Source: Anaeromyxobacter sp. Fw109-5 (GTDB lineage Bacteria; Myxococcota; Myxococcia; Myxococcales; Anaeromyxobacteraceae). From it: 64,000 nucleotides of DNA. This document shows, piece after piece, positions 40,803 to 58,739 of this stretch. Numbering within the stretch: the first letter of the stretch is position 1; each line of letters begins with the position of its first letter. The notes below the pieces were generated by a model. It saw only the letters and a program-made list of their open reading frames with translations. It was not told the origin of the DNA and ran no database searches. The stretch lies in contig NC_009675.1 in NCBI RefSeq assembly GCF_000017505.1, forward strand, positions 5,088,501-5,152,500. The letters are read 5' to 3'. Position numbers and translations under genes: made by a program.

Positions 40803-42257
40803 GTGCGCCCCGCCCTCGACGCCACCGCGGTCGTGCTGTACCGCGACGGTCCGCCGGGCCGCGAGGTGTTCCTCGTGCGGCGCGGGGTCGACCGGCGCTT
40901 CGCGGCCGGCTTCCACGCCTTCCCGGGCGGCCGGCTCGACCCCGAGGACGGCGAGCTCGAGGTGGCGGGGCTCGCCGGCGAGGCGGCCGCGCTCGCGGCC
41001 TGCGCCGCGCGCGAGCTGTTCGAGGAGACCGGCGTCCTCGTCGCCCGCGGGCCGCCACCCTCTTCGCCGGAGCGCGACGAGGGCCGGCGCGCGGTGCTCG
41101 AGGGGAGGCTCTCGTTCCGAGCCTTCCTCGCGCGCCAGGGGCTCGTCGTGGACGGCGCCCGGCTCGTGCCCGCCGGCCGCTGGGTGACGCCGGACCACCT
41201 CCCGCTCCGCTACGACGCCCGGCTGTTCCTCGTGCGGCTCGCCCCGGAGGACGCGCCGGAGGTCTGGCCGGGCGAGCTCGCCGGCGGCGCCCTCGTGCCG
41301 GTCGCGGACGCCCTGCGGCGCTGGTCCCGCGGCGAGCTCCTGCTCCACCCGCCGAACCTGCACGCGCTGAGGGTGCTCGCGCGCCCCGGCGCCCCGTCGC
41401 TCGAGTCCCTCCGGGCGCCGCCGGACTGCGAGGCGTTCGTCTCGCGGCGCATCGAGTTCCAGGAGGGCTTCTTCCTCGCCGCGCTGCGCACCCCCACGCT
41501 CCCGCCCGCGACGCACACGAACGCCTGGCTCGTCCCGGCGGACGGCGGCCTCGCCGTCGTGGATCCCGGCCCGACGGACGCGGGCGAGCAGGCGAAGCTC
41601 CTCGCCCTCCTCGAGGCGCTCGCCGCCGAGGGCCGTCCGCCCCGGGCCGTGTGGCTCACGCACGCCCACCCCGATCACGTGGGCGCCGTGGCGCTCGTGG
41701 CGGAGCGCTACCGCGTGCCGGTGCTGGGCCACGCGCTCGCCGCCGCGCGGCTCCCGCCCGGCCTCGACTTCCGCCCGCTGCGGGACGGCGAGCTCCTCGG
41801 CGCGCGCTTCCGGGTGCTCGCCACTCCCGGCCATGCCCGCGAGCACCTGGCCTTCCTGGACGAGGACAGCGGCGCGCTGCTGTGCGGGGACATGGTCTCG
41901 ACGCTCTCGACGATCGTGGTCGATCCGCCCGAGGGCGACATGGCGGAGTACGAGCGGCAGCTCGAGCGGCTCCGCGCGCTCGCGCCTCGCACGCTCTACC
42001 CCGCGCACGGGCCGCCCGCGCCCGCCGCGCCGGAGCGGCTCGGGGCGTACCTCGCGCACCGGCACGCGCGGGAGGCGCTCGTCGTGGAGGCGCTCGGGAA
42101 GAGCGGGCGGACGCTCCCGGAGGTGACCGCGCTCGCGTACGCCGACACCCCGCCCGCGGCGCTGCCGTTCGCCGAGCGGAGCTGCCTCGCCGCCCTGCTG
42201 AAGCTCGCGGCCGAAGGGCGTGCCGCCCTTTCGGGCGAGGGCTGGCTCCGTCCCTGA
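40803..42257 (+). CDS. NUDIX hydrolase fused to metallo-beta-lactamase fold hydrolase
   Basis: The 484-residue product joins two enzymes. Residues about 1-200 form a NUDIX domain like NUDT19, an acyl-CoA diphosphatase: VFLVRRG, FPGGRLDPED and, after a long insert, AARELFEETGVLV (residues 68-75). Residues about 230-470 form a metallo-beta-lactamase fold of the LACTB2 type: NAWLVPADGGLAVVDPGP, THAHPDHVGAVALV (ligands near 285-290), ATPGHAREHLAF, LLCGDM and LYPAHGPP. The tail resembles the LACTB2 winged helix. The start GTG is 2 nt after the upstream stop. The joint substrate is unknown; nucleotide or acyl-CoA clean-up is plausible. Confidence 0.85.
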   Translation: MRPALDATAVVLYRDGPPGREVFLVRRGVDRRFAAGFHAFPGGRLDPEDGELEVAGLAGEAAALAACAARELFEETGVLVARGPPPSSPERDEGRRAVLEGRLSFRAFLARQGLVVDGARLVPAGRWVTPDHLPLRYDARLFLVRLAPEDAPEVWPGELAGGALVPVADALRRWSRGELLLHPPNLHALRVLARPGAPSLESLRAPPDCEAFVSRRIEFQEGFFLAALRTPTLPPATHTNAWLVPADGGLAVVDPGPTDAGEQAKLLALLEALAAEGRPPRAVWLTHAHPDHVGAVALVAERYRVPVLGHALAAARLPPGLDFRPLRDGELLGARFRVLATPGHAREHLAFLDEDSGALLCGDMVSTLSTIVVDPPEGDMAEYERQLERLRALAPRTLYPAHGPPAPAAPERLGAYLAHRHAREALVVEALGKSGRTLPEVTALAYADTPPAALPFAERSCLAALLKLAAEGRAALSGEGWLRP

Positions 42258-42285
42258 TCGCGGATTTCCGAAGCCGTGTCTCGGA

Positions 42286-42307
42286 TTGCCACGCGGACCC
42301 GTGGCAA
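42286..42307. promoter_or_regulatory. Dyad TTGCCACG-N6-CGTGGCAA
   Basis: A perfect 8-bp inverted repeat with 6-nt spacer is centred about 76 nt upstream of the transcript start predicted from a sigma-54-like promoter. This is a usual place for enhancer-binding protein sites. It could alternatively be a terminator hairpin for the NUDIX fusion gene. Confidence 0.45.
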
Positions 42308-42345
42308 GAATTCCCCAAATCCCCGATTTTTCCCGGCAGCCGGGC

Positions 42346-42361
42346 GGGCATGCGCGTTGCA
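42346..42361 (+). promoter_or_regulatory. Sigma-54-like promoter GGGCATG-N4-TTGCA
   Basis: The site matches TGGCAYR-N4-TTGCW at all specified positions but the first. The start predicted from its GC at -12 is near 42372, 4 nt from the ATG of the next gene. Confidence 0.45.
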
Positions 42362-42375
42362 GCCCCGATATCCGC

Positions 42376-42900
42376 ATGCCTCCCCGCGCGTGGAAAGTGG
42401 CCCGCGTCGGCCTCATCATCCTGTCCGCCTTCCTGGTCGGGGGGGCCTCGGCCGAGGTGGCGGTCCGCACGCACGGCGCGCTCGCCCGCGCGCGGGCCGA
42501 GCGCGAGGTCGGCGCCGCCGGCCAGCTCGTCGCGCTGGAGCTGCGCGACCAGAGCGGCGAGGTCGTGGCCCGGCCGCGCATCGTGGCCCCCGCCGGCAAG
42601 GCCGCCGAGGTGGTGCTGCACGAGCCCGGCTCGCAGGGTGCGATCCGGGTCGCGTTCCGGGTGGCCGCCGTGCGCGAGGCGACGGGCGACATCGCGCTCG
42701 CCTACGCGCTGTGGGTGCCGGGGCACGAGGTCCAGGCGAGCGGGACGGTGCAGCTCACCCCGGGCGTCGAGCAGCAGATCGCGCTCGGCGACGGCGCGCT
42801 CGTCGCCACCTGGCTCGCCGTGCCGGTGCCGTCGGCCGCGCTCGACGCGTTCCTCGAGAGCGAGGGCGCGCAGCGGCCGCGCCCGCGCCGGTCGACCTGA
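42376..42900 (+). CDS. Hypothetical secreted or membrane-anchored protein
   Basis: The 174-residue product has one N-terminal hydrophobic segment (VGLIILSAFLVGGASA) that is either a cleaved signal or an anchor. A beta-rich domain follows with VALELRDQSGEVVARPRIVAP, AAEVVLHEPG and AIRVAFRVAAVREATGD. No family is recognised. ATG 42376 and GTG 42397 both suit the signal peptide; neither has a good ribosome site. The gene may be driven by the sigma-54-like promoter just upstream. Its stop runs into a repeat element. Confidence 0.65.
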   Translation: MPPRAWKVARVGLIILSAFLVGGASAEVAVRTHGALARARAEREVGAAGQLVALELRDQSGEVVARPRIVAPAGKAAEVVLHEPGSQGAIRVAFRVAAVREATGDIALAYALWVPGHEVQASGTVQLTPGVEQQIALGDGALVATWLAVPVPSAALDAFLESEGAQRPRPRRST

Positions 42901-43020
42901 GAGAGAAGCTGCGGGCTACGGCAGCGGCTCGCGACGGACGGTGCTCCGCGCAAGCGGGCGCCGTCTTCCCCGAAGCGTGAAGCCTGGAGGGCGGAAGCCT
43001 TCCCCGAAGCCCCGAGCCTT
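42900..43020 (+). repeat. Intergenic palindromic repeat, copy B
   Basis: Between convergent stops, this block shares GAGAGAAGC, GGGCTACGG, CGGCTCGC, GGCGCCGT, CCCCGAAGC and GAAGCCTGGAG with the element at 22.6 kb read on its minus strand. It carries several direct GAAGCC units. Confidence 0.55.
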
Positions 43021-43024
43021 CCTC

Positions 43025-43543
43025 CTACCGCTCTCCCTCGATCGCGTTCGCCTCGGCCTCGAGCCGCGCCGCCTCCGCGAGCACGGCGCGCTGCCGCTGG
43101 GCGAGGAGCTGGCGCTGCTCGACGAGGAGGCGGAGCCGCTGGTGGCGCTCGGGGGACGCCGGCGTGGCCATGGCGGCGCCGATCTGCGACATGCGCAGCT
43201 CGTTGCTCGCGGTGGTGATGCGGATGTCGAGCGCGTGGAGCGCCGCCGCGATGCGATCGGCCTCGTCGCGGGCGGCGTCGGCGCGCTCGCGCAGCTCCTC
43301 GGGAGAGGGGGGCAGCGCGAGCGGCAGGGCGCCGTCGTCGTGGAGCTCGCCCTCGATGACCATGGCGAGCTCCTGCGCCCGCACGAGCAGCCGCTCCAGC
43401 TCGCGCCGCACGTTCTCGCCGTGCAGCTGGCGCAGCTTGAGCTGCTGGATCTGACCGGCGATCACGTCGAGCTCCGCGCGGTGCGCGTCGAGCTCGGCGG
43501 TGGGAGCACAGAGGAGCAGTGCGAGCGCGATGCCTTCGAACAT
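43025..43543 (-). CDS. Coiled-coil protein with signal peptide
   Basis: The 172-residue product starts MFEGIALALLLCAPTAELDAH, a short signal with a Cys that could be a weak lipobox. The rest is a long charged helix region rich in Glu, Arg, Ala and Leu (AELDVIAGQIQQLKLRQL, ADAARDEADRIAAALHAL, RLRLLVEQRQLLAQRQRAVL) with heptad spacing. That predicts a periplasmic coiled coil. No named family is evident. ATG 43543 is preferred over a GTG eight codons earlier because it places the signal at the N terminus. Its promoter is not clear. Confidence 0.65.
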   Translation of the reverse strand: MFEGIALALLLCAPTAELDAHRAELDVIAGQIQQLKLRQLHGENVRRELERLLVRAQELAMVIEGELHDDGALPLALPPSPEELRERADAARDEADRIAAALHALDIRITTASNELRMSQIGAAMATPASPERHQRLRLLVEQRQLLAQRQRAVLAEAARLEAEANAIEGER

Positions 43544-43711
43544 CCGGGTCCGGACAGAGCAACCCACGTGCCCGCGCGGTGCGCCGCGCGATCAAGCACT
43601 TACACGCGGTCCTCGGCCAGCGACGTACGCAAACCCGTCGAAAGCCTCGGAAATCCGTGACGCATGTGGCAGGCGGCCGCCCCGTCCCGTCCCGGGCGGC
43701 GCGCGGGGGGT

Positions 43712-44217
43712 TCACGGCGTGAGCGAGGGCTCGCCGTATTCGCCGCTGCCGACGAGCGCGCCGCGCTCGTCGTAGCTGCGCCAGGTGCCGCACTGGGCGC
43801 CGCCGCAGCGGCGGCCCTCGGTCTTCTTCCCGCCGCCGGGCCAGTAGGCGGTGAACCCACCGTGCGGGAGGCCGTCCTTGAACTCGGCCTCCTCCTCGCG
43901 CGTCCCGGAGGGTGACCAGATCGTCCAGCGTCCCGTCTTGGCGCCGCGCGCGTACTCGCCCTCGCGCGCCTTCCCGCCGCCGCGGTGGTACTCGACGAAG
44001 GGACCGTGGAGCTCGCCCGCCCGGAAGCGCTCCTCCACCCACAGCCCGCCGTCGTCGTAGTAGCGGCGGGCCGGCCCCTCGCGGCGCGCCCGGCCCGCGG
44101 GATCCTTCCCCTCGCACCACTCCTCGTAGCCCTCGGGCGGCGGCAGGCCGCGGCGCTCGGTGCCCGGCGGGCACTCGAGCGGCGCGGCGGCCAGCGCGAG
44201 GGCGAGGGCGGCGGCGA

Positions 44218-44221
<4 letters not shown>
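43712..44221 (-). CDS. MORN-repeat (YwqK-like) protein with signal peptide, probable CTG start
   Basis: The frame from CTG 44221 encodes 169 residues. First comes a signal-like stretch ([17 protein letters not shown]), then a Cys-containing linker. Several MORN_2 units follow: [52 protein letters not shown] and [22 protein letters not shown] proteins often act as scaffolds. No ATG, GTG or TTG precedes the signal in frame; GGAGG stands 7 nt before the CTG, and C-TGA overlaps the stop of the upstream activator gene. The conservative alternative is GTG 44038, which would lack the signal and leave 180 nt of coding-like sequence unused. Confidence 0.7.
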
Positions 44222-45624
<1,403 letters not shown>

Positions 45625-52817: not shown

Positions 52818-54272
52818 CTAGCTGCGCCTCGAACCGAGCCCGAGCGTCGCCACGCGGACGAGGGTGGCGTGCGGCCGCGCCGAGTCGGCGGGCAGGGCGA
52901 GGCGCGCGATCGTGCCGCCGCCGTCGCGCTGCTCGAGCGACAGCGTGCCGCCGTGAGCGTCGGCCACCTTCTTCGCGAGGGCGAGGCCGAGCCCGGTCCC
53001 CTTCTCCTTGGTGGTGAAGAACGGCCGGAACAGGCTCGCGCGCGCCTCCGCGGCGAGCCCCGGGCCGCGGTCGCGCACCTCGATGTGCGCCTCGCCGTCG
53101 GCCACGCGCGCGGCCACCTCGACCTCGCTCGCCGCAGGGGCGGCCTCGACGGCGTTGCGGACGAGGTTCAGCAAGGCCCGGCGGAGCTGCTCGCGATCGG
53201 CCTTCGCCTCGCCCTCGCCTTCCACGGCGATGGAGACCTGTCGCTGCGCCGCGAGGGGGGCGGCGAGATCGGCGACCTCGGCGAGCACGATGCGCAGATC
53301 CACCGGCTCGCGCAGCGGCGGCCGCGCGCGCGCGTAGTCGAGGAACTCCTCCACCACCTTGGACAGCGCCGCGAGCTCGCTCTGGATGCGCGCCACGTGC
53401 GGCGCCTGCGCCCGGCCCTGGAGCTCCTCGGCGAGCAGCCCCGCGAACAGGTCCAGCGCGCCGAGCGGGTTGCGCACCTCGTGCGCGATGCCGGCGAGCA
53501 GCGTCTCCCGCTCCTCGTCGCGCGCCCGGAGCGCCCGGCGCATCTCCTCGAGCGTGTCGCGCAGCGTGCCGATCTCGTCGCGGCGCGCCCGCCGCCAGAG
53601 CGGCGTCTCGAGGTCGCCGCGCGCGATGCGCCTGGCCGCCTCGGTGAGGCGCGTGAGCGGCCGGGTCACCGAGAGCGAGGCGAGCGCGGCCACCAGCGCC
53701 CCGAGCACCGCGCCGGCGATCGCCACCGTGCCGAGGAGGCGGCGGAAGCGGCGCAGCGTCGCGAACGACGCGGCGGTCCCGTCCGCCCCGACCACCGCGA
53801 CCACCTTGCCCTGCGGGTCGGAGAGCGGGGCGTAGCCGGTCTTGTAGAGCCGGCCGTCCGAGCCCTCGAACAGCACCTGGCTCGCCATCGCCCGCCCGGC
53901 GGCGGCCTCGGCGATCTCGAAGCGGTCGCGCTCCAGCGCAGGCACCGGCTCGCCGATGGGCATCCGCCCCTCGGAGTCCACGAGCGCGGTGCGGTCGGGC
54001 TTGACCACGATGAGCCGCGTGCCCGTCGCGCGCGCCACCGGGAGGAGCCGGGCGCGGAGGTGGCCGTAGGTGCGGCTCCCCTCCTGCCCGGCCTCCAGCC
54101 GCACGACGCGCTCCGCGGGCAGGGCCGCGGCGGCGGCCTTGGCGGCCACGACGAGGCGCGCGGAGACCTCGTCGTCGAGGGCCCGCCGGGCGAGGCGGTC
54201 GGCGACGAGGGCCATCACCGCGAGCGAGAGCAGCGCGGGGAGCAGGGCGGCGAGGGCGAAGCGCAGGCGCAC
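52818..54272 (-). CDS. Membrane sensor histidine kinase with HAMP domain
   Basis: The 484-residue product has a membrane helix at the N terminus (LAALLPALLSLAVMALVA), a periplasmic sensor of about 130 residues, a second helix (LLGTVAIAGAVLGALVAALASL) and a HAMP segment (VTRPLTRLTEAARRIARGDLE). His near residue 260 sits in LAGIAHEVRNPLGALDLFAG. HATPase_c boxes follow (NLVRNAVEAAP, RDRGPGL, KGTGLGLALAKKV). Start is GTG 54272, with TAGCAT 6 nt upstream and no ribosome site. The partner regulator is not adjacent; the alpha/beta hydrolase gene lies 9 nt upstream on the same strand. Confidence 0.9.
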   Translation of the reverse strand: MRLRFALAALLPALLSLAVMALVADRLARRALDDEVSARLVVAAKAAAAALPAERVVRLEAGQEGSRTYGHLRARLLPVARATGTRLIVVKPDRTALVDSEGRMPIGEPVPALERDRFEIAEAAAGRAMASQVLFEGSDGRLYKTGYAPLSDPQGKVVAVVGADGTAASFATLRRFRRLLGTVAIAGAVLGALVAALASLSVTRPLTRLTEAARRIARGDLETPLWRRARRDEIGTLRDTLEEMRRALRARDEERETLLAGIAHEVRNPLGALDLFAGLLAEELQGRAQAPHVARIQSELAALSKVVEEFLDYARARPPLREPVDLRIVLAEVADLAAPLAAQRQVSIAVEGEGEAKADREQLRRALLNLVRNAVEAAPAASEVEVAARVADGEAHIEVRDRGPGLAAEARASLFRPFFTTKEKGTGLGLALAKKVADAHGGTLSLEQRDGGGTIARLALPADSARPHATLVRVATLGLGSRRS

Positions 54273-55725: not shown

Positions 55726-56126
<401 letters not shown>

Positions 56127-56135
56127 GCCGCGCGC

Positions 56136-57191
56136 TTGTCCCGGAACGGCAAGCCTCCTCCGCTCCCGGCGGCGCTGGCCCGGGCGGCCGTCGACTCCAT
56201 CGCCGACGCGGTCCTGATCGTCGGCGCCGACGGCGGGGTCGTCCACCTGAACCCCGCCGCCGAGGAGCTCTTCGGCCGCAGCCGGGAGCGCGCGGTGGAG
56301 CTGCCGGTGCGCGCGCTGCCGGGCGGCGCGCAGCTCGCGGTCCTCTGCGAGCGCGTGCGCAGCTCGCAGGAGAGCCAGTCGATCCACTACCCGAGCCCGC
56401 AGGATCCCGGCATCCCGATCGCGGTGGAGGCGGGGCCGCTCCTCGACGGCTCCGCCTGCGTGGGCACCGTCGTCGTGCTGCGCATCCCGCGCGCGTCGGA
56501 GCGCGCGCTGGACTTCGAGGCGCTGGCCGCGGGCCTCGCGCACGAGATCCGCAACCCGCTCGCCGGCCTGCAGGGCTCGGCGGAGCTCCTCGCCCGCGAG
56601 GCCGAAGGGCCGGCGCGCGAGTACGCGGCGGTGATCGCGCGCGAGGCGAAGCGCGTGGACGGGCTCGTGCGCGAGCTCCTCGACCTCGCCCGCCCGGCGG
56701 CGCTCCAGACCGCGGCCATCGACCTGCACGAGATCGTGGGCGACGTGCTCGTCCTCGTGCGCGGCATCCCCGGCGCGGAGCGGGTCACGTTCGTGGAGCG
56801 CTACGATCCGTCGCTCCCCAAGCTGCACCTCGACGCCGAGAAGCTCACCCAGGTGCTCCTGAACCTCGTGCGGAACGCCCTCGACGCGGTGGCCGGGCGG
56901 CAGGGGGCGCAGATCGCGCTCGAGACCGGCGTCTCGTCGCTCCGGCTCCGCTCCGCGAGCGGCCGCACCCGGCCCCTCGTGCGGCTCTCGGTGCAGGACA
57001 ACGGCTCGGGGATCGCGGAGCCCATGCTGCATCGGCTGTTCACCCCCTTCGCGACCTCCAAGGCTCACGGCACCGGCCTCGGCCTGGCGGTGTCCCGCCG
57101 CATCGTGGAGGCGCACGGCGGGCGCATCGAGGTGAAGAACCGCGCCGGCGGCGGGGCGGAGGCGAACGTCTACCTTCCGCTCGACGCCTGA
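56136..57191 (+). CDS. ntrB: Nitrogen sensor histidine kinase NtrB
   Basis: The 351-residue soluble kinase has a PAS domain (AVDSIADAVLIVGADGGVVHLNPAAEELFG, about 15-120), the phosphoacceptor GLAHEIRNPLAGLQGSAELLA with His near 136, and HATPase_c boxes (NLVRNALDAVAG, DNGSGIAEPML, GTGLGLAVSRRIV). With ntrC next and glnB before, it is the kinase/phosphatase that P-II governs. TTG 56136 is the start; it is 9 nt after the glnB stop, so translation is likely coupled. Confidence 0.93.
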   Translation: MSRNGKPPPLPAALARAAVDSIADAVLIVGADGGVVHLNPAAEELFGRSRERAVELPVRALPGGAQLAVLCERVRSSQESQSIHYPSPQDPGIPIAVEAGPLLDGSACVGTVVVLRIPRASERALDFEALAAGLAHEIRNPLAGLQGSAELLAREAEGPAREYAAVIAREAKRVDGLVRELLDLARPAALQTAAIDLHEIVGDVLVLVRGIPGAERVTFVERYDPSLPKLHLDAEKLTQVLLNLVRNALDAVAGRQGAQIALETGVSSLRLRSASGRTRPLVRLSVQDNGSGIAEPMLHRLFTPFATSKAHGTGLGLAVSRRIVEAHGGRIEVKNRAGGGAEANVYLPLDA

Positions 57192-57281
57192 TCCGGCACC
57201 GGGCGAGACGGGCCCCGGCCGGCGGTAGCGAGCTGGCCCCGTCCTTGCTTACGGCAGGACGAGCGCAAGCGGAACGGAGGC

Positions 57282-58739
<1,458 letters not shown>

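Follow-up and report, generated by a model that had tools for sequence, protein, structure and literature searches.

Genes at the locus

Two genes that face each other encode predicted exported proteins in the window analysed here, a stretch of 64,000 nt from Anaeromyxobacter sp. Fw109-5. Gene A (42376–42900, plus strand) encodes a 174-aa protein predicted to be exported or membrane-anchored, composed of an N-terminal helix and a beta domain, and gene B (43025–43543, minus strand) encodes a predicted exported helical protein of 172 aa. Between B and the gene of an NtrC-type activator (44218–45624, minus strand) lies that of a MORN-repeat protein (43712–44215, minus strand; MORN_2), also predicted to be exported, for which membership in the regulon proposed below is not claimed. 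A membrane histidine kinase with HAMP, HisKA and HATPase domains (Pfam), the proposed partner of the activator, is encoded at 52818–54272 on the minus strand. Further along, a PII-like protein, an NtrB-like kinase and an NtrC-like activator, named by eye, are encoded in a row at 55788–58739 on the plus strand.

Gene A, which the first-pass annotation had called an orphan, was found in 16 of the 24 genomes of the family and in 8 of the 9 genomes of the genus, the present genome being included in both counts; the ninth genus genome, G007, is 66% complete. The model of protein A (pLDDT 79.6) places the N-terminal helix before a beta domain at residues 47–152, and no convincing Pfam family was found for the protein. 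When the model was searched against known structures, the first 27 rows were secretins (VIA Z 8.9–13.4), with the first other protein at Z 7.7; most secretin rows aligned with an rmsd of 2.6–3.8 over 104–129 residues, and four with 6.4–7.1 over 142–143 residues. The beta domain resembles secretin C-domains in structure, with VIA Z up to 13.4 at an rmsd of 3.3 over 105 residues. Foldseek gave a best E value of 2.7e-3 with a TM score of 0.34. None of the 16 A proteins matched the secretin family PF00263 at E ≤ 1, and hhalign of A against 11 secretin segments from the genus returned a probability of 0.5%. The resemblance is structural only, without sequence-profile support, and because the Foldseek match is weak and a profile match is absent, we do not assign A to the secretins.

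A profile search detected B in 9 of 147 genomes of the class, namely eight of the genus and G017, a member of another genus. The model of protein B consists of long helices (pLDDT 82.4). It had no PDB match at E ≤ 0.001, and the nine B proteins gave no convincing Pfam family. The best VIA hit (Z 11.0, rmsd 1.6, 93 residues aligned) was among mixed helical proteins and falls within the noise stated for helices. The MORN protein is conserved in all seven genus neighbourhoods examined. Outside the genus it adjoins A in six of eight loci, the exceptions being G017, where the contig ends just after A, and G019, where no match was found. Its reading frame extends to a likely signal peptide, immediately before which there is no ATG, GTG or TTG, and meets the stop codon of the activator; the gene may use a rare start codon or be translationally coupled.

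Two facing sigma-54 promoters

The −24/−12 element upstream of A, GGGCATG-CGCG-TTGCA (42346–42361, plus strand), is kept in all eight genus loci. The first-pass annotation had scored it at 15 of 16 consensus positions; the site itself holds, but that score counted the four N positions, and 11 of the 12 defined positions of TGGCAYG-N4-TTGCW actually match, the first base being G instead of T. A twin promoter missing from that account, GGGCACG-TGGG-TTGCT (43558–43573, minus strand), precedes gene B and is present in all nine B loci. In both promoters the −24 GG and −12 GC lie 10 bp apart within a close match to the consensus, and both keep GGCAYG-N4-TTGCW. This exact core has two copies in the window where 0.03 would be expected, a count reached in 0 of 100 shuffles, with the second copy at 43572–43558 on the minus strand, before gene B and facing gene A. 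One-mismatch cores showed no excess in the window (8 found, 7.5 expected), and the pattern with the leading T occurs at one site only. The site at 42346–42361 is real and conserved, at a fixed distance from the gene in eight genomes, which bears out the proposal of a sigma-54 promoter for exported protein A.

Sigma-54-like sites with the right GG/GC spacing were also found at all four A genes of genera g2 and g5 (G009, G010, G017 and G019), with 1, 1, 2 and 1 mismatches to GGGCAYG-N4-TTGCW, respectively; shuffled sequences gave at most one mismatch in 0.3% of trials and at most two in 4%. These sites lie 32–48 nt from the start of the match; taking the ATG seen in the alignment as the start codon gives leaders of about 23, 26, 27 and 39 nt. 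At these loci (L014–L017) the sites take the form GGGCAYR-N4-(T/G)TGCW, the leader is of ordinary length and a CGGATTTCCGA enhancer is lacking. At the A genes of four g4 genomes no sigma-54 site was found, the best candidates having 3–5 mismatches. As these comparisons suggest, sigma-54 control of gene A is probably older than Anaeromyxobacter, unlike the enhancer, B and the short leader.

Predicted leaders and start codons

Transcription from sigma-54 promoters begins about 12 nt from the C of the −12 GC, with start points that vary by a few bases. For A, the C at 42360 puts the predicted +1 near 42372, 4 nt before the ATG at 42376 (predicted leader 42372–42375, plus strand). For B, where the C lies 16 nt from the ATG, the same geometry also predicts a 4-nt leader (43544–43547, minus strand). 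The distance from C(−12) to ATG at A is 16 nt in the window and 15 nt in the seven relatives, and at the nine B loci it is 15, 16, 16, 16, 17, 19, 20, 20 and 20 nt. It is thus 15–20 nt in all 17 promoters, corresponding to predicted leaders of 3–8 nt, which cannot hold a Shine–Dalgarno sequence. The 4-nt leader reported for A in the first-pass annotation looks like a real property, and a short predicted leader is conserved in every genus homolog. At the three other strict sigma-54 sites of the same genome with an ATG in range, the predicted leaders are 14, 15 and 17 nt, and two of the three genes carry a GGAGG-type sequence.

The predicted leaders could be wrong, through another transcription start or an inner start codon, in which case there would be nothing unusual about the messages. 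Inside A there is a GTG at 21 nt in the window and an ATG at 21 nt in G004, and the scatter of sigma-54 start points by a few bases would act in the same direction. Against this, no alternative in-frame ATG, GTG or TTG is common to all eight A homologs, and the distance from C(−12) to ATG stays within its narrow range in every promoter. A TTG at −18 of A, present in six of the eight homologs, falls within the −12 element. At one B locus (L028), an ATG at 4 nt was rejected, as it overlaps the −12 region, in favour of the conserved start at 20 nt. We consider it unlikely, if a serious contender, that the leaders are misplaced.

A conserved element upstream of both promoters

The candidate enhancer of promoter A, CGGATTTCCGA (42261–42271, plus strand), is identical in all eight genus A loci, forms the core of the near-palindrome TCGGA-TT-TCCGA and is centred 81 bp from the −24 GG. 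A second, weaker copy, TCGGATTGCCA (42281–42291, plus strand), follows about 21 bp from the first; it has three mismatches to the 12-base consensus, is centred 60 bp from the GG and lies in a conserved block (0.74). Promoter B has a candidate enhancer of the same sequence (43647–43657, minus strand) centred 80 bp from its −24 GG, with a second weaker copy in the window about 20 bp on from the first. A spacing of 20–21 bp between copies is what two paired dimer sites would be expected to show. In unguided profiles of 12-mer conservation, the enhancer ranked first upstream of A (0.98, followed by the −12 region at 0.82; mean identity 0.55) and first upstream of B (0.91, followed by the sigma-54 site at 0.85 and 0.82; mean identity 0.54).

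In the relatives, the B enhancer shows zero or one further change in the 12-base consensus. In the second clade the B promoters have TCGGTTTTCCGA, TCGAATTTCCGA or TCGGATTTTCGA, each with one change, and at B of G003 and of G004 a single change separates the enhancer from an exact CGGWWWTCCG. The enhancer centre lies 80–82 bp from the −24 GG at all eight genus B loci; at A the distance is 80–81 bp in three loci and 92–94 bp in five, two classes that differ by about one helical turn. At the A genes of the eight non-genus loci no enhancer was found, the best candidates having 3–5 mismatches of 12. The short predicted leader and the candidate enhancer thus characterize A in the Anaeromyxobacter lineage, and they accompany the module in every place where B occurs.

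In the genome (5,277,990 bases in a single contig), CGGATTTCCGA occurs exactly four times, twice at A and B and twice elsewhere (L022 and L023). The latter copies lie inside open frames of at least 200 codons, with no GGCAY-N5-TTGCW in the 3-kb loci, and are therefore taken as chance occurrences. A composite enhancer–promoter pattern matched 11 places in eight of the 24 family genomes, all at A or B, and its reversed control matched none. A looser version matched 32 places in 26 of the 147 class genomes (control, 0). Fourteen of these belong to genus genomes and coincide without exception with A or B; the other 18 lie outside the genus, 13 in genus g19 and five elsewhere, of which three were looked at. 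In the two g19 genomes examined, G056 and G057, the pattern precedes a kinase gene; G056 has a kinase–activator pair, a different one, with an activator 43% identical to that at 44218–45624. The g19 places are read as one inherited, separate promoter. In 13 of the g19 genomes covered, a CGGATTTCCG element is kept about 60–90 bp above a sigma-54-like site (L068, L069 and L081), which may represent another enhancer system of this type. In two g20 genomes, G072 (L082) and G074, a CTCGGAATTCCGAG-type palindrome stands above a TGGCATC-N4-ATTGCT-like site near an ATG.

The neighbouring activator and a distant kinase

The sigma-54 activator gene noted nearby in the first-pass annotation is present at 44218–45624 and encodes an NtrC-type protein with receiver, AAA+ and Fis-type HTH domains (Response_reg, 6e-27; Sigma54_activat, 3.4e-75; HTH_8, 1.3e-13), the proposed binder of CGGATTTCCGA. 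Its orthologs are 83–96% identical in the eight other genus genomes and 72% identical in G017, and the next match listed in the family is at about 50%. Within the family, the genomes with close orthologs are the nine B genomes and G007, whose contig ends just beyond the activator. The order A, B (facing), MORN protein and activator holds in all seven genus neighbourhoods examined. B and the activator ortholog are absent from the eight non-genus stretches around A, five of which hold a different regulator (41–42% identity). In G017 the activator ortholog lies elsewhere, flanked on the same strand by a histidine kinase gene immediately upstream and the B homolog immediately downstream. A sigma-54 site precedes the ATG of the G017 B gene by 15 nt, and the enhancer there is poor (3 of 12 positions wrong, centre at 90 bp). 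At the same locus (L051), downstream of B at about 6080–5030 on the minus strand, a frame reads by eye like an outer-membrane beta-barrel precursor.

The G017 kinase is 66% identical to the kinase encoded at 52818–54272, with the next best in the genome at 34%. Orthologs of this kinase (78–81%) were found in five of the eight genus stretches searched, the one in G004 being partial because its stretch stops within the gene, and the remaining stretches, three in number, are short. In the present genome the kinase lies 7 kb from the activator, not adjoining it, and the pairing of the two is proposed by analogy with G017.

Synteny, enhancer conservation and co-occurrence support the link between promoter A and the neighbouring activator that had been suggested earlier, and binding of the regulator to the proposed enhancers is suggested by co-occurrence and linkage. 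Several observations count against a two-promoter regulon under this regulator. The genome holds 17 matches to the regulator at E ≤ 1e-100, any of which could act; the B enhancer of G017 is poor although the recognition helix is identical there; the looser pattern occurs at the 18 non-genus places; and the kinase is distant from the activator in the present genome. The promoters and the CGGATTTCCGA enhancers could thus be real but bound by another NtrC-type regulator, the neighbouring one having other targets. The sigma-54-like sites at A of the four sister-genus genomes, where no ortholog of 44218–45624 lies beside the gene, would also fit such an arrangement. It is opposed by the distribution of the composite enhancer–promoters, which in the family are confined to A and B and to genomes that have a close regulator ortholog, and by the co-occurrence of regulator and B, which extends to another genus and another place. 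We judge control by another regulator to be quite improbable; one two-component regulator probably turns on both facing genes, to the extent that gene order and conserved elements indicate its targets.

The upstream gene and the inverted repeat

The gene upstream of A runs in the same direction with a gap of just 118 nt, so that A could be transcribed only by read-through, with the sigma-54-like site a chance match. One-mismatch sites are indeed at chance level in the window, but the exact sites exceed expectation, the site keeps a constant distance in eight genomes though the flanks diverge, and it is repeated at B in the opposite orientation. Read-through as the sole source of A messages is very improbable.

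The first-pass annotation had also described a perfect dyad, TTGCCACG-N6-CGTGGCAA, and proposed it as the regulatory site. The dyad is in the sequence as described (TTGCCACG-CGGACC-CGTGGCAA, 42286–42307), has perfect 8-bp arms at a fitting distance from the sigma-54 promoter and has no second exact copy in the genome. As a site for the activator or an operator for another protein, it fails on conservation and chance frequency. None of the seven genus relatives keeps it, the very outcome that the first-pass annotation had named as refuting its proposal, with 5–8 of the 16 arm bases mismatched at the best match in each; in the two nearest relatives the left arm is kept with one change and the right arm is gone. 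With up to three mismatches it occurs at 10 places in the genome, compared to 7 for a reversed-pattern control. Perfect dyads with 8-bp arms and loops of 3–20 nt are common in the window (184, against 128–153 in five shuffles), and those with a loop of 6 number 9 (3–10 in five shuffles). Promoter B has no such dyad, the window containing one exact copy. The left arm overlaps the second, weaker copy of the conserved enhancer motif, and the start of the conserved enhancer lies 25 nt upstream of the dyad. An operator role for the dyad is accordingly rejected as having next to no likelihood. Even less credible is a terminator of the upstream hydrolase gene, rejected although the dyad begins 28 nt past the stop codon (42257) and could form an 8-bp hairpin: no T-run follows the stem immediately 3′, a terminator scan of 42100–43800 does not include it, its folding energy is no better than that of shuffles (z −0.28) and it is not conserved. 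On the comparison of relatives, the dyad is not the enhancer and not part of the putative switch, and the locus illustrates how a plausible dyad can mislead.

A proposed enhancer-dependent regulon

The features conserved across the genus, namely sigma-54 sites, enhancers, spacing, start codons and gene linkage, are arranged as in a compact enhancer-dependent regulon of kinase, activator and sigma-54 promoters serving two exported proteins, a reading we consider likely; all genus evidence for it descends from one clade. We infer a scheme in which the membrane histidine kinase (52818–54272) would sense a signal and phosphorylate the NtrC-type regulator (44218–45624). The regulator would bind TCGGA-TT-TCCGA and the weaker copy about 21 bp on, 80–94 bp above the two facing sigma-54 promoters, and would remodel the waiting sigma-54 polymerase through ATP hydrolysis. 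Exported proteins A (42376–42900) and B (43543–43025) would thereby be switched on together. Their messages would begin 3–8 nt before the AUG, and translation would start without a Shine–Dalgarno sequence.

The start-proximal sigma-54 promoters are, as predicted, the unusual part of the locus. Across two gene families and two genera, all 17 promoters hold the −12-to-AUG distance at 15–20 nt, which may couple a two-component signal to Shine–Dalgarno-independent translation of exported proteins. The A genes of the sister genera have a sigma-54-like site, a leader of 23–39 nt and no enhancer, so that A may have been taken over in the Anaeromyxobacter lineage. We tentatively put forward, as a reading with slightly less than an even chance of being right, a sigma-54 regulon in which both target mRNAs would be leaderless or nearly so by design, gene A of Anaeromyxobacter having been taken over by the kinase/activator/B module, with gain of the enhancer and loss of its leader. 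Should the 5′ ends prove to be as predicted, the locus would offer a clean test of whether leaderless translation can be fed by sigma-54 promoters. The genus has many NtrC-type regulators without assigned targets, and here a directly testable regulon, comprising the enhancer TCGGATTTCCGA, the activator, the kinase and two targets, could be proposed from sequence alone.

Comparison with known systems

ZraS–ZraR–ZraP is an enterobacterial zinc and envelope-stress system, and the ZraP family is of the metal-resistance/LTXXQ type. Like that system, the present locus combines a membrane kinase, an NtrC-type regulator and the gene of a small exported helical protein under sigma-54, and the closest solved and curated relatives of the activator include ZraR. 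Scores nevertheless fall far below the curated cut-offs (406.5 bits compared to 760 for ZraR, and 133 compared to 479 for ZraS), and no ZraP-type family was among the matches of the nine B proteins at E ≤ 0.1. The present locus also differs in having a second target, A.

The short predicted leaders recall bacterial leaderless mRNAs. In Sinorhizobium meliloti, according to the portions of the report available, such messages start at or next to the AUG without a Shine–Dalgarno sequence (PMC3616915), and the motif described upstream of leaderless mRNAs in Bradyrhizobium japonicum is an extended −10 (TGnTA) (PMC4842269). The A and B messages are likewise predicted to start near the AUG without a Shine–Dalgarno sequence. 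The excerpts of these two reports draw no connection with a sigma-54 promoter (PMC3616915, PMC4842269), and the accessible parts of the leaderless mRNA literature do not describe sigma-54 promoters feeding leaderless translation.

A further parallel is offered by Nla28 and other NtrC-type activators of Myxococcus xanthus. Nla28 is described in the available sections of its report as a two-component activator whose tandem sites precede TGGCACG-N4-TTGC(T/A) promoters, with an 8-bp half-site CT(C/G)CG(C/G)AG that occurs in clusters and a putative regulon of 70 promoters that includes cell-envelope genes (PMC9765219). Both are myxobacterial NtrC-type activators with, in the present case, proposed tandem sites above sigma-54 promoters. 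Unlike Nla28, as portrayed in those sections, the present system would use the element TCGGATTTCCGA, and two promoters were found compared to the 70 putative ones of Nla28. The accessible parts of the literature on Anaeromyxobacter sigma-54 and enhancer binding proteins and on leaderless mRNAs in M. xanthus do not describe the A/B locus. The kind of regulon is known; the present member is new.
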